Part shown: piece by piece, positions 34,635 to 46,096 of the stretch
How positions within the stretch are numbered: position 1 is the first letter of the stretch
Layout: every line of letters starts with the position of its first letter
NCBI GenBank assembly: GCA_023623185.1
Contig: JAMNXV010000124.1
Coordinates: forward strand, 1-64,000
Source: Bacillota bacterium
GTDB taxonomy: Bacteria; Bacillota; Sulfobacillia; Symbiobacteriales; Symbiobacteriaceae
Direction of reading: 5' to 3'
Length of the DNA stretch: 64,000 bases
Program-made: the position numbers and the translations under genes
Notes under the pieces: model-generated
Told to the model about the DNA's origin: nothing
Seen by the model: the letters and a program-made list of their open reading frames with translations, nothing else
Database searches by the model: none

Positions 34635-34880
34635 TTACTGCGCCTCTGAACCCGGGCTCTGCGCCTGCTGCTGCTCCGGCCGTTCCGGAAAGGGCTTCGG
34701 CTTGATGGCCTGCGGGCTGAACATCTGAATGTAGCCGCACTTGGGACAGCCCAGCATGACCACAGGCACCGCCGGTCCCGGGACGGGCTGGTTCTTCTCA
34801 TTCAGCGCCATCGGCGTCCACTGGCCGGGAATCTGGGCGAGCTTCGTATTGCCGCAGTGTGCGCACTCAACCTCCAACAA
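34635..34880 (-). CDS. Small zinc-ribbon protein
   Basis: About 81 residues. Two Cys pairs, CAHCGN and CPKCGY, spaced about 38 residues apart, form a zinc ribbon. The C-terminal third is Pro/Gln/Glu-rich (PKPFPERPEQQQAQ). GGAGGT precedes a GTG (34886) and two TTG codons (34880, 34877), so the exact start is uncertain. It follows tlyA directly. Function unknown; a nucleic-acid or protein-interaction role is possible. Confidence 0.7.
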   Translation of the reverse strand: MLEVECAHCGNTKLAQIPGQWTPMALNEKNQPVPGPAVPVVMLGCPKCGYIQMFSPQAIKPKPFPERPEQQQAQSPGSEAQ

Positions 34881-34896
34881 ACGCACCTCCCCACCC

Positions 34897-35684: not shown

Positions 35685-37628
35685 TCAGGGCCGTTCGCTG
35701 CCGGCGGCCTTCGCGCCCACGCGCCGCACGGTCCGCTTGGGCCGGGCCGGCTGAGCCGACAGGTCGGCGCGCACCTGCAGCAGCAGCTGCTCCGCCCGCT
35801 GCGCCACGCCCTCCGGCGTCAGCCCGTACCGCTCGAGGAAGTGGGCCGGCTTGCCGTGGTCCACGAACTCGTCGGGGATGCCCATGCGCGTGACGCGGGC
35901 GTCCACCCCGTGGGCCGCGAAGAGCTCCAGCACGGCGGAGCCGAAGCCGCCCGCGAGGCAGGCCTCCTCAACTGTGACCACCGCGCCCACCTGCCGGCCG
36001 GCGGCGAGCAGCAGGTCTGCATCCAGCGGCTTCACATACCGCGGGTTGATCACCATCGCGGAGATCGACTTCTCCGCCAGCAGCCGGGCCGCCTCCTGGC
36101 AGACCCGCGCCATGGTCCCCAGGCCGACCAGGACGACGTCCGTGCCCTCCTGCAGCACCTCGCCCCTGCCGATGGGCAGTTGCTGCAGCGTCTCGTCCAG
36201 CGGCACCCCCTGCGCCTTCCCCCTGGGGTAGCGCAGGGTCGCGGGGCCCTCGTGGCAGAGGGCGGTGTAGAGCATGTGCTGCAGCTCGTTCTCGTCCTTC
36301 GGCGCCATGACCACCATGTTGGGAATCGCGCGCAGGTACGCGACGTCGAAGACGCCCTGATGGGTCGCGCCGTCCTCGACCAGCCCGCCCCGGTCGATGG
36401 CCAGGGTCACCGGCAGGTTCTGCAGCGCGACGTCGTGGATCACCTGGTCGTAGGCGCGCTGCAGGAAGGTGGAGTAGACGGCGAAGACCGGCCGCATGCC
36501 TCCCTTGGCGAGGCCCGCGGCGAACGTCACGCCGTGCTGCTCCGCGATGCCCACGTCGAAGTACCGGTCCGGGAACTGCCGGGCAAAGCGGCTGAGCCCG
36601 GTGCCGTCGGGCATGGCCGCGGTGATTGCGCACACCCGCTGGTCTTCGGCGGCAAGCTTGCAGATCGTGCGGCCGAACACCTCGCTGTAGGTCACGGCCC
36701 CCGGCCCGGTCCGGCCCGTGGCAACATCGAAGGGGCCGCCGCCGTGGAACTTGTCGGGCAGCTCCTCGGCGTAGGGCACCCCCTTGCCCTTGGTGGTCAC
36801 CACGTGGACCACCGTCGGACCCGGGTAGGACCTGGCCTGGCGGAGCACATCCTGCAGCGCGGCGAGGTTGTGGCCGTCCACGGGGCCCAGGTACGTGAAG
36901 CCCAGGTCCTCGAAGAACATGTTGTGCACCAGCAGGTGCTTCACGCCCTCCTTCAGCCGGTCCACCAGGTCGAGCGCCTGGGAGCCGACGAAGGGGATCT
37001 GCCGCAGGGCCTCGGCCACATCGTGCTTGACCCGCTGATAAGAGGGTCCGGTGCGGATGCGGGCCAGGTAGTTGGAAATGCCGCCGACATTGGGGGCGAT
37101 GGACATGGAGTTGTCGTTGAGCACGACGATCAGCTTCGTCTTGTCCTGGCCGGCATGGTCGAGTCCCTCGTAAGCCATGCCGCCGGTCAGCGCGCCGTCC
37201 CCGATCACGGCGACCACCTCGTAGTCGTCGCCGGCCAGGTCGCGCGCCTTGGCCATGCCCACCGCCGCGGAGATCGAGGTGGAGGCATGGCCCCAGTGGA
37301 AGTGATCGTGCACCGACTCCCGCGGGTCGGTGAACCCGGCGATGCCGCCGTACTGGCGCAGGGTATGGAACTGGTGCAGCCGCCCCGTGAGCAGCTTGTG
37401 GACGTAGCTCTGGTGCGATACATCCCACAGAATCTTGTCGCGCGGGCTGTCGAATACGATGTGCAACGCCAGGGTCAGCTCGACGACACCCAGGTTGGGG
37501 GCGAGATGACCGCCGTTGGCTGCCACGGTCTCCAGAATGACGCGCCGAATCTCGGCCGCCAGCTCGGCCAGTTCTGCGGGAGTCAGCCGTTTCAGCTGCT
37601 CCGGACCCGTAAGGTCCCGCAGGTGCAT
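35685..37628 (-). CDS. dxs: 1-deoxy-D-xylulose-5-phosphate synthase
   Basis: 647 residues. First enzyme of the MEP isoprenoid pathway; joins pyruvate and glyceraldehyde-3-phosphate with thiamine diphosphate. Seen: [19 protein letters not shown], the TPP motif [13 protein letters not shown] through [30 protein letters not shown] and the C-terminal [17 protein letters not shown]. In the motif usually EA(M/L)N(H/N)AG this copy has EGLDHAG, with Asp for Asn. ATG at 37628 has AAGGAGGA upstream. Three bases after oapA, so co-transcribed. Confidence 0.96.
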
Positions 37629-37630
37629 CG

Positions 37631-38236
37631 CTACGAGTTCCTCCTTCGCCCGTTGCTCACGGACCGGCCGCCCGTGAAGGAGCGGCCCGTGATCTGCTCT
37701 ACCCAGTAGATCATCCGCCCCGCCGCCATGACGGCCGTCGTGGCCTTCTCGATGGCAAACGTCTTCCCCGCCGCCTTGCCGCCCACCGTGAGGCCCGAAA
37801 TCACGCCGACGATCACCAGGTTCAGAACCTGCTCCGTCCAGCTCTGGCCCTGCATCACCAGGGAGAGCCGCAGCGCCACCGTCGCGCCCGCGGCGCCCGT
37901 CACGGCGCCGGCCACGTCGCCGACCACGTCGTTGCAGAAATTGGCCACCGCGTCCGCGTTCCGCACCAGCCAGAGCGCCTGCCGCGCACCCGGCACCTTC
38001 TTCGACGCCATGGCGTTGAACGGCGGAAGCTCCGCGGCGGTCACGCTGGTGCCCAAAATGTCGAAGACGATGTTGACGACGATCAGCAGCAGGACCACCA
38101 GAAAGGCGATGATGGCATGGACCCGGTGCAGCGCCAGGTTTGAACCCCAGTTGACGACGACGGCCAGTAGAAAAGAGAGTACGCCGACCCGGACAGCGCG
38201 TCGCCATCCAGGTGATGGAGGAGGCTCTTTCGCCAT
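37631..38236 (-). CDS. oapA: OLE-associated membrane protein OapA
   Basis: 201 residues with about four hydrophobic helices. The hallmark region [20 protein letters not shown] then [20 protein letters not shown] and [11 protein letters not shown] contains a D-x3-D motif (DVVGD), the pattern I know for OapA, the membrane partner that binds OLE RNA. Often annotated as a DUF21 or CorB-like protein. Its place between the OLE RNA and dxs is the usual one. The leader carries a 13-base site complementary to the 5' end of the OLE RNA. Confidence 0.88.
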
Positions 38237-38264
38237 GTTTGACAGACGCTCCTGAAGTACAAAC

Positions 38265-38277
38265 TATGGGTGGCGCA
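38265..38277 (-). promoter_or_regulatory. oapA-leader site complementary to the OLE RNA 5' end
   Basis: On the minus strand TGCGCCACCCATA, an exact 13-base complement to TATGGGTGGCGCA at the start of the OLE RNA (39056-39068). It could compete with the normal 3' partner strand (38413-38424) for pairing. It lies about 30 bases before the oapA start. Confidence 0.55.
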
Positions 38278-38321
38278 CCCTGAGGGGCCGCGCCGGATCC
38301 CCAAACCACGTGGTTATTCCG

Positions 38322-38350
38322 ATACTACCATACCACCGATTGGGCTACAA
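38322..38350 (-). promoter_or_regulatory. Possible sigma-A-type promoter for oapA-dxs
   Basis: Minus strand TTGTAG, 17 bases, TAGTAT, located after the OLE terminator. Both boxes are weak matches to TTGACA and TATAAT. It would allow oapA and dxs to be read when the OLE transcript terminates. Confidence 0.3.
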
Positions 38351-38367
38351 CGCCAGCGCACCCGCGG

Positions 38368-38400
38368 GAAAAAGGCGGATACCCCGTGGGTACCCGCCTT
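38368..38400 (-). terminator. Rho-independent terminator of the OLE RNA
   Basis: Minus strand AAGGCGGGTACC, CACG, then GGGTATCCGCC followed by TTTTT. It lies 13 bases after the 3' end of the RNA's closing stem and before oapA. Confidence 0.85.
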
Positions 38401-38412
38401 CGCGTATTCAAA

Positions 38413-39070
38413 ATTATGGGTGGCAGCCTGGCAAGTAAATCTTGCGGCTTAGGTCCAGCAGGCTTTCCCCATGGCCTCCGCAGCGTCGCCGCCACGGCGG
38501 TTTCCCTTTATGGCCAAGCTGCCGTGTCACCACCGGCAGGGCTGGATTGCCACTTAGACCGCACTACAATCCTTGCCAGACCTCTTGCGAGCAGCCTAGG
38601 AATTTTCTTCGACAACACACCTTTTCCTAGCCTCTTTTGCAAGCGTGGTTTCAGCGGCCATCGCCCCCGCCATCTGCTGGCCGGCGTCCGACGGGGGGTT
38701 TCGGACCCGTAAGCCCACGGTCGCATCCGCCACACCCACTCAAGGCAGGCTACGCTGCACCCGGCACCTCACCATGTTTCAGTACCGCATGCAGGTGTTC
38801 ACTGCACCGCAGCCGCATCGCTCACGTTGGCGCGACCGCCGCGGGTGCAGGCCTCCACGGAAAGAGGGTCGGGGCCCGCATGCCATTGCGGGTCGCCCCC
38901 ATTCCGGCAGCGCCGGACCAAAACGGCCCGGTTGGCTGTATCCCCAGCACCAGCCCCCGATTGGGCATCGGCGGCCAGCACCAGAGACGTCATCGATGTG
39001 CCCGTTGACGGATTTTTAGGCCCGCCTTCAGAAAAGGTAGTACTGACTAGGATACTGCGCCACCCATAAT
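38413..39070 (-). ncRNA. ole: OLE RNA (ornate, large, extremophilic)
   Basis: A 658-nt intergenic region without a credible gene. It is bounded by ATTATGGGTGGC at its 5' end (39059-39070) and GCCACCCATAAT at its 3' end (38413-38424); these form a perfect 12-bp closing stem. A strong terminator follows. OLE RNAs are about 600 nt, occur in extremophilic and anaerobic Firmicutes, lie among isoprenoid genes and precede oapA. Here the order is ispA, RNA, oapA, dxs. Many internal complementary stretches are visible, for example CCTAGGAAT-type arms around 38600-38630. The call rests on context, size, terminal stem and the neighbouring oapA, not on a covariance search. Confidence 0.88.
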
Positions 39071-39111
39071 CTGAGTGAACGGCCTTCGTCACCAAGAAAT
39101 CATAGCACCCG

Positions 39112-40005
39112 TCACGCGACACGGTCAACTACAGATTCTGCCAGAGCCCGCAGCACCCACGCGTCGCGGCCGAAGGGTTCCAGCTCTCCCAGGGCCTGGC
39201 GCACGGCCGCGTACGCGCGCTCGCGCGCGCCGTCCACGCCGTGCAGGGAGACATAGGTCGACTTCTCCTGGCGGGCATCGCTCCCGACGCCCTTGCCCGT
39301 CAGGGCGGCGTCGCCCACCACGTCCAGCACGTCGTCCCAGATCTGGAAGGCCAGCCCGAAGTGCGCGGCGTACCGGCCCAGCCGGTCGAGGTCGCCCTCG
39401 CCCGCACCGGCGAGGATGCCGCCCATGCGCACCGCCGCGCAGAAGAGCGCACCGGTCTTCAGCGAGTGAATGCGCCTGAGCTGCGCCTCATCCGCCTGCC
39501 GGCCCTCCCACGCCAGGTCCTCCACCTGCCCGCCGATCATGCCCGCCGCCCCGGCAGCCTGTGCGAGCTCCAGGGCAGCCCGCGCGGTGCGCGCGGGCCC
39601 CACCCGGGCAACGCCGGCCTGCTCCGCCATCAGGCCGAAGGCCTGGGTCAGCAGGGCGTCCCCGGCCAGTACCGCCATGGCCTCGCCATAGACCACGTGG
39701 CAGGTGGGACGGCCCCGGCGCAGCTCGTCGTCGTCCATGCACGGCAGGTCGTCGTGAATCAGCGAGTAGGTGTGAATCATCTCGATGGCGCAGGCGCACG
39801 GCATGGCGTCGGCGGCATCGAGACCGAACAGCTCCGACGCCGCGAGGACCAGGATCGGACGCAGCCGCTTTCCCCCGGCCAGCAGGCTGTACCGCATGGC
39901 CTCCACCAGCCGCGGCGGGGCGTCCAGGCCGGACGTGTAACGGTCCAGCGCCGCCTCCACCTGCTCCCGCCTCGCGGCCACATACTGCAGATACTCACGC
40001 TTCAA
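39112..40005 (-). CDS. ispA: Farnesyl/geranyl diphosphate synthase
   Basis: 297 residues, usual length. Condenses IPP with allylic diphosphates. First Asp-rich motif DDLPCMDDDELRRGRPT, second DDVLDVVGD, plus LLAGGKRLRP and the substrate Lys/Gln region MIGGQVEDL. The family residue pattern fits short-chain (C15) synthases of Bacillus type. TTG start behind GGGGGG. Preceded by xseB, followed by the OLE RNA. Confidence 0.95.
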   Translation of the reverse strand: MKREYLQYVAARREQVEAALDRYTSGLDAPPRLVEAMRYSLLAGGKRLRPILVLAASELFGLDAADAMPCACAIEMIHTYSLIHDDLPCMDDDELRRGRPTCHVVYGEAMAVLAGDALLTQAFGLMAEQAGVARVGPARTARAALELAQAAGAAGMIGGQVEDLAWEGRQADEAQLRRIHSLKTGALFCAAVRMGGILAGAGEGDLDRLGRYAAHFGLAFQIWDDVLDVVGDAALTGKGVGSDARQEKSTYVSLHGVDGARERAYAAVRQALGELEPFGRDAWVLRALAESVVDRVA

Positions 40006-42381: not shown

Positions 42382-43353
42382 CTATGCTGTCACGCCGTGG
42401 CACGCCCGCGCCAGCAGGGCGGTGCCCACGGCGTTGTCGGTGCTGAACCGGGGCTCCGCAAAGGCGAGGCGCGCGCCCACAGCCGGGTGCTCCAGCCGCT
42501 TGCGCAGGCGGCCCCGCAGGATCTGGTTGGCCGCCACCCCGCCGACGATGAGAATCTCCCTGAGGCCCGTCTCCCCCATGGCGTGCAGCAGCCATTTCTC
42601 CAGGCTCTTTGCCACCGCCTGCAGGACGGCCAGCGCCAGGTCCGCGGGCTCGGCCCGGCCCACCAGCCGCTGGGCCGCGCTCTCCGGCCCCGAGAAGGAT
42701 AGGGCGTACCCCCGGACCGCGGAGGGCAGCGTTACCCGGCCGGGCCGGCCGGACGCGGCCAGCCGCTCCAGGTGCGGGCCCGCCGGGAAGGGAAGCCCGA
42801 GCGCGACACCGACGCGGTCGACGAACTGGCCGGCGTGCAGGTCCTGAGTGCCGCCCAGCAACTCCTCGTCGAACCCGCCGGGCCGCCGGGTCACCCGGAT
42901 CAGCTCGGTGGTGCCGCCCGAGAGGTGCACCGCCAGAAACTGCTCGCCCCCCGGAGGCTCGTCCGCGGACCAGAGGCCAGCCTGGATGTGCATCTCCTGG
43001 TGTGTGGTGGGGTAGAACGGCACGCCCAGGGCCGCCGCCAGGGTGCGGCCGAAGCCCTCCCCCACCCGGAAGGGCGGCAGGTAGGAGCCCTCCACGGGCC
43101 GGGGCTTCACGGAGGCCGCCACCGCGGCCACAGCCGGCCCGTGCCGCCGGAGAATGGGCTCAGCCAGCCCGGGCAGGGCGTTCAGGTGCGCCCACACTGC
43201 CTCGTGGGGCGCAACGCCCCGCGCGCCTTCCGCAACGGCCAAAAGGCGGCGCTGATCCTCCAGCAGCCGCCCGGCTTCATCCACCAGCGCCACCGAACAG
43301 GTGTAGTAGCTTGTATCAATCCCGAGAAACAGTCTGGTCTGCACCGCCAGCAC
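42382..43353 (-). CDS. TsaD/Kae1-family paralogue
   Basis: 323 residues, ASKHA fold. Begins RLFLGIDTSYYTCSVALVDE, has the metal-type pair H-x3-H in THQEMHIQAG, LAVHLSGGTTELI, and a C-terminal IVGGVAANQILRGRL. The core matches the TsaD (t6A tRNA modification) family, but several TsaD motifs are altered, and it lies between nusB and folD, where clostridia carry a second TsaD-like gene (old name O-sialoglycoprotein endopeptidase). It is probably not the housekeeping TsaD. GTG start inside the nusB 3' end. Confidence 0.8.
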   Translation of the reverse strand: MLAVQTRLFLGIDTSYYTCSVALVDEAGRLLEDQRRLLAVAEGARGVAPHEAVWAHLNALPGLAEPILRRHGPAVAAVAASVKPRPVEGSYLPPFRVGEGFGRTLAAALGVPFYPTTHQEMHIQAGLWSADEPPGGEQFLAVHLSGGTTELIRVTRRPGGFDEELLGGTQDLHAGQFVDRVGVALGLPFPAGPHLERLAASGRPGRVTLPSAVRGYALSFSGPESAAQRLVGRAEPADLALAVLQAVAKSLEKWLLHAMGETGLREILIVGGVAANQILRGRLRKRLEHPAVGARLAFAEPRFSTDNAVGTALLARACHGVTA

Positions 43354-45001: not shown

Positions 45002-45229
45002 CCGCACCTCGCCTCCGCCGCACGTTATGTAGTATACCAGCCAGTTGCCATCGGAATACAGCCACGGGAACGGCTGGTCGCTTGCATGCTCATAGTAGCA
45101 TAGATTGCCAGGCCCTGTCACCGACATGCCGCGCTGCCTTTTCCCCAGGGCGCCTGTCCTTGCGCAACCTTTCAGACTGCCTTTTCGTTCTATTTCGTGA
45201 ATAGCGAAGGCAGGGAAAGGTGGAAGCGC

Positions 45230-46096
45230 ATGGGTTCCTTTCTCTCCAACCTGGCGAAGGCGCTGCTCCTGATCACCCTTCTGGCGCACGCCGGTTCGGT
45301 TCAGGCGGTTCCGGTGCAGGGAAGCCAGAGCTCCGGCAGCCCACCGCCGCCTGCGGGGGACCTGAAACAGGCCGAGCCGACCGGGGGCTCCGTCCCCGCA
45401 GAAGAAGCCGGGACTGAGGAGGACGAGCCCCTCGCTGAGTCCGAGCCGGCGGGCCCGCCGACGCACGCTCTCCCTCATCCCGCATCGCCGGATCCGATCT
45501 ATTGGGTGCCCACCGAGGGCATGGAGGTGGTGCTGACCATCGACGACGGCCCCAGCCACCTCACCGAGGGCTTCCTGGCGATCCTCGCCGCCGAGGAGGT
45601 TCCCGCCGTCTTCTTCTGGCTCGCCGGCAGTGCACGCCTCCCCCTGGCCGCAGAGGTGGTCCGGCAGGGGCATCAGCTCGGCACACACACCATCTCCCAC
45701 CCCCGCCTTCCCAGGCTTCCGCCTGCTGAGGCCGAACGGCAGATCGCCGAGTCGAAAGCGGCCCTGGAGGCGGCGGCAGGAGTGCCCATCCACTTCTTCC
45801 GCCCCCCTTACGGCGAGCACGACCGGCACACGCTGGAGACCGCCGCTGCCCACGGGCTGACGACGGTCCTCTGGAACGTCGACTCGCGCGACTGGGCCCT
45901 GGCGGATGACCCCGACACGATCATCGCCAACGTGATGGCGCGCGTGAAGCCGGGCGCCGTCATCCTGATCCACGAGCGCACGCAGACCCTGGCCGTGCTG
46001 CCCGCCTTGATCCGGGCGCTGCGGGAGGCGGGCTACACCTTCGTGCCACTGGCGGAGCCCGTTCCCGCCCCGGCGTCCGGCGCTTCCGGCGAGTGA
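45230..46096 (+). CDS. Secreted polysaccharide deacetylase
   Basis: 288 residues. Signal peptide (LAKALLLITLLAHAGSVQA), a Pro/Gly/Glu-rich linker, then a NodB domain: LTIDDGP (catalytic and metal Asp), H-T-x2-S-H in GTHTISHPRLP, FFRPPYGEHD, WNVDSRDW and VILIHE. All NodB motifs are present, so it should be an active deacetylase of peptidoglycan or chitin-like glycans. ATG at 45230 has AAAGGTGG upstream. Its 3' end overlaps the convergent next gene by 64 bases. Confidence 0.92.
   Translation: MGSFLSNLAKALLLITLLAHAGSVQAVPVQGSQSSGSPPPPAGDLKQAEPTGGSVPAEEAGTEEDEPLAESEPAGPPTHALPHPASPDPIYWVPTEGMEVVLTIDDGPSHLTEGFLAILAAEEVPAVFFWLAGSARLPLAAEVVRQGHQLGTHTISHPRLPRLPPAEAERQIAESKAALEAAAGVPIHFFRPPYGEHDRHTLETAAAHGLTTVLWNVDSRDWALADDPDTIIANVMARVKPGAVILIHERTQTLAVLPALIRALREAGYTFVPLAEPVPAPASGASGE

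Follow-up and report, generated by a model that had tools for sequence, protein, structure and literature searches.

The window analysed here, a 64-kb stretch of DNA, belongs to a Symbiobacterium-type member of the Symbiobacteriaceae (Bacillota) whose assembly comprises 3.4 Mb in 226 contigs and is about 88% complete. Its minus strand carries, in the direction of reading, ispA (farnesyl diphosphate synthase; 39112..40005), an OLE RNA gene (38404..39079), oapA encoding the 201-aa OLE-associated membrane protein A (37631..38236), and dxs (35685..37613). The first-pass annotation had named ispA and dxs as the neighbours, and both were confirmed by curated family models, at 354 bits for ispA (NF045485, cut-off 275) and 826 bits for dxs (TIGR00204). 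The true start of dxs likely lies just past the oapA stop. Three other reading frames of the window are worth noting. A TsaD/Kae1-like protein, encoded at 42382-43353 (minus strand) between folD and nusB, scored 139.6 bits with TIGR03723, far under the cut-off of 296, and was thus regarded as a divergent paralogue in a conserved cluster. A PdaB/NodB-type polysaccharide deacetylase, at 45197-46096 on the plus strand, opposite to the cluster, stayed under all curated cut-offs. An 83-aa frame downstream of tlyA (34635-34886, minus strand) has a zinc-ribbon-like CxxC...CxxC pattern and matched none of the NCBIfam models.

OLE is a large membrane-associated RNA known from thousands of Bacillota genomes, and the host analysed here falls within the phylum expected for the class. 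Members are expected to yield an abundant, stable transcript of about 600 nt that localises to the membrane. When the whole window was compared with the Rfam covariance models, RF01071 (OLE) was the sole family above its cut-off. The match, at 39079-38404 on the minus strand, scored 465.6 bits (E = 1.8e-133; gathering score, 50 bits) and covered model positions 1-616 of 616; a permissive search of the window yielded nothing credible beyond it. Covariance searches further found OLE to be single-copy in the host genome and gave zero matches in 14 control genomes. OLE had been proposed at this place by the first-pass annotation with a covariance search as the suggested check, and that search, now run, upholds the identity; what had been described as a structured stretch matches the OLE model from end to end. 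The perfect 12-bp closing stem described for it also stands, with ATTATGGGTGGC as the 5' strand (39070-39059) pairing with GCCACCCATAAT as the 3' strand (38424-38413), both read on the minus strand. The stem spans exactly the 658 nt from 38413 to 39070, and the same pairing was seen in two congeners. The RNA probably begins a few bases before 39070 and downstream of the -10 element (39104-39099). Some variable stems show mismatches to the model, as might be expected of a degenerate OLE remnant, but the score is close to those of the best relatives, the conserved core and loops are intact, as are oapA and the genes of the other partners, and there is conservation in the congeners, so that such decay can practically be dismissed. 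We are therefore nearly certain that the stretch is a genuine OLE RNA and that, in this Symbiobacterium species, it forms with oapA the unit that is standard for the isoprenoid gene cluster of Bacillota.

A predicted promoter for OLE, TTGACC-18-TATGAT with an extended -10 TG (39128-39099, minus strand), scored 10/12 in a consensus scan and overlaps the end of ispA. The same promoter-like sequence is recognisable in three other family members (both congeners and G126), a conservation that may stem from coding, as the -35 overlaps ispA codons. Downstream of OLE, an intrinsic terminator was predicted at 38400-38369 (minus strand), with 14 pairs and a folding energy of -24.4 kcal/mol, compared with -13.2 kcal/mol for shuffles (z = -4.6). 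The hairpin is kept in both congeners, where bases have changed on both arms and the arms largely still pair. A terminator had been claimed within the 658-nt stretch; the strong hairpin is indeed present, but its position is outside that stretch. Between the terminator and oapA lies a weaker promoter-like sequence, TTGTAG-17-TAGTAT (38350-38322, minus strand), with a similar one in congener G129. If the stretch were not an independent RNA but a long, structured leader (or attenuator) of oapA-dxs, it would likewise sit directly upstream of these genes and end in a terminator hairpin. We consider this explanation very unlikely, since every domain of the published stand-alone RNA class is matched, a promoter-like site is located in front of the stretch and another promoter-like sequence is found past the terminator. 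Taken as an independent RNA, OLE appears to have its own transcription unit here, as the predicted promoter and terminator suggest.

No Pfam or NCBIfam model matched the 201-aa product of oapA and a PDB sequence search with it found nothing; its identity was therefore established from homologues that adjoin OLE in other genomes and from the predicted fold. When 30 OLE loci of the class were searched with this protein, homologues adjoining OLE were found in 24 of the other 29, and identity to OapA proteins outside the genus was 34-43%. Among 24 aligned OapA sequences, D103, G106 and D107 of the DVVGD motif are invariant, as are G153, K154, A155 and K158, which form a GKA..K motif. The DxxxD motif is a published hallmark of OapA (PMC11332333). 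The AlphaFold model (mean pLDDT 80) is all-helical, with four long helices at residues 11-38, 41-67, 94-127 and 133-163 plus shorter ones, while simple hydropathy analysis gave only about three stretches where OapA is expected to have four transmembrane helices. Its sole notable PDB match was the CNNM protein CorB (7m1t; Foldseek probability 1.00, TM 0.53), and likeness to CNNM proteins has been reported for OapA of H. halodurans (PMC11332333). Homology, the DVVGD motif with its two D residues and G invariant, synteny and predicted fold thus agree on OapA, as had been claimed for this frame.

The genes for the other partners are located elsewhere in the genome than the OLE locus. An OapB orthologue is encoded between adk and infA, with OLE-associated protein B (7k9b, E 1.1e-9) as its best PDB match; a 94-aa KOW match (L113) considered as OapB was rejected as ribosomal protein L24. 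An OapC/YbxF orthologue is encoded beside rpsL, with YbxF structures as its best PDB matches (4lck and 3v7e, E 9e-18), and a bS21 gene is present as well. OapC is absent from some OLE carriers (PMC11332333). The genome also contains a lone CNNM-domain gene, an MpfA-like counterpart of OapA (489-aa frame, G000:C225:23066-23614), and a single CNNM-domain gene has likewise been published for OLE carriers (PMC11332333).

OLE was present in 100 of the 154 genomes of the class. Among 92 related loci, ispA, OLE, oapA and dxs lie together on one strand in 62, many of the others being truncated contigs. The isoprenoid setting, which the first-pass annotation had pointed out for this locus, does not distinguish it: ispA upstream and dxs downstream is the common arrangement across Bacillota, and the clustering of OLE with isoprenoid genes has already been reported (PMC12265935). 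Gene order and position are thus those usual for this known class, of which the locus is otherwise an ordinary representative; OLE, OapA, OapB and OapC are all published. In a sister family (order relatives G130, G131 and G132; loci L118, L126 and L127), OLE-oapA is present and ispA and dxs were not detected in the available flanks, so that the pair seems not to belong to the isoprenoid cluster in that family.

We found that the joining region J4a/5 contains a 31-nt hairpin (38938-38908, minus strand) that is an insert relative to RF01071, with an outer stem CAGC...GCUG and an inner stem CCGGGCC/GGUCCGG. An insert of about 29-33 nt occurs at the same J4a/5 site in all five Symbiobacteriaceae genomes examined (that of the window and G126-G129) and in none of the 87 other OLE loci. 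Across the 95 loci compared, the P4a loop and P5.1 are separated by 67-71 nt in the eight that come from the five family genomes and by 36-40 nt in the 87 others. A search of 398 genomes of the phylum for the long-spacing pattern gave matches only in the window's genome and one congener, which is a lower bound as the pattern demanded exact flanks. The insert divides the conserved UUAAGG after its UU, and the AA that follows is changed to CC in 5/5 family genomes. The outer stem reads CAGC/GCUG, CGGC/GCCG or CGGU/ACCG among the five genomes, and the inner hairpin follows. All 20 cells of the outer stem are paired and two of its four pairs show two-sided, compensatory change, a covariation drawn from only five sequences and one in which shuffles reach two two-sided pairs in 73 of 500 cases. 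Folded as a lone strand, the J4a/5-P5 region did no better than shuffles (z -0.78), so the hairpin was called from covariation and conservation and draws no support from folding energy. A pairing of the inserted CAGC with a GCUG of P4a was also considered and rejected, as it needs G-U pairs in G126 and G127, whereas the outer stem of the hairpin is made up of Watson-Crick pairs only. In the literature search, no open paper mentioned OLE RNA together with Symbiobacterium, and this Symbiobacteriaceae-specific hairpin may be undescribed so far.

In H. halodurans, J4a/5 contributes one strand to the OapC kink-turn (PMC9723947), and it likewise forms a strand of the kink-turn that cryo-EM revealed in C. 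acetobutylicum (PMC12286853). This strand, as found in other species, is split here by the hairpin and has its AA replaced by CC; because of this alteration, binding of OapC to the Symbiobacteriaceae OLE is doubtful. In addition, P6 of H. halodurans OLE contains a perfect anti-Shine-Dalgarno mimic, CCUCCU, that is the bS21 site (PMC12054373). The mimic is missing from the P6 5' strand of the window's OLE, which reads CCUGCACCC / GGCCUGCACCCGCGG. It is possible, though somewhat short of probable, that the covarying, family-specific hairpin has replaced the OapC kink-turn, and that the switch region, which turns on OapC and bS21 binding in other species, works differently or without OapC in this family. 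A comparably tentative explanation, which rivals this reading but not the identity of the RNA as OLE, holds that the hairpin arose by neutral expansion, the joining region being tolerant, and that OapC is still bound. The retention of the OapC gene is in keeping with such an expansion, as is the free variation among relatives at the insert positions of the Rfam model in P6, P7 and P9. In contrast, the spacing in J4a/5 is otherwise nearly fixed among the loci compared, and the pairs of the hairpin have been maintained through compensatory change.

A working scheme for the particle can be proposed. Transcription would start at a promoter of OLE's own, the one that overlaps the ispA end, and run to the terminator ahead of oapA, yielding an RNA of about 660-700 nt; expression of oapA-dxs would depend on read-through or on a second promoter. 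By analogy with published work in other species, the RNA would fold as OLE and dimerise via its conserved loops, and OapA dimers would anchor it in the membrane at P4a. OLE would then recruit OapB; OapC and bS21 would probably join as well, and the particle may serve stress adaptation as in Halalkalibacterium halodurans. To this scheme the present analysis contributes the family membership, the gene order, the presence of all partner genes and the inserted hairpin. Among the conserved bacterial RNAs whose biochemical function is not known in any organism, OLE is one of the largest, and for this reason each well-placed representative helps. The OLE of the Symbiobacterium lineage is naturally altered precisely in the OapC/bS21 switch region and can therefore serve as a natural test of whether the OLE particle needs the kink-turn.

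Compared with known systems, the window's OLE shares with the class, as represented by Halalkalibacterium halodurans and Clostridium acetobutylicum, the full-length core structure, the conserved loops, ispA upstream, oapA immediately downstream and dxs beyond. It differs in having the J4a/5 hairpin of about 31 nt, the adjoining change of AA to CC, a P6 without CCUCCU, and a predicted promoter and terminator of its own; the J4a/5 kink-turn and the CCUCCU mimic are not defining features of the class. OLE of H. halodurans is reported as part of a polycistronic transcript (PMC12265935), whereas both signals of a separate unit here are sequence predictions. The window's OapA agrees with known OapA: it is a helical membrane protein, its DxxxD and GKA..K motifs are invariant and its gene adjoins OLE; there is no difference of note. 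Its predicted fold resembles the CNNM domain of the CNNM/DUF21 Mg2+ transporters (MpfA, CorB), but OapA lacks the CBS and CorC_HlyC domains, has the DxxxD motif, and is encoded in a genome with a separate CNNM protein.
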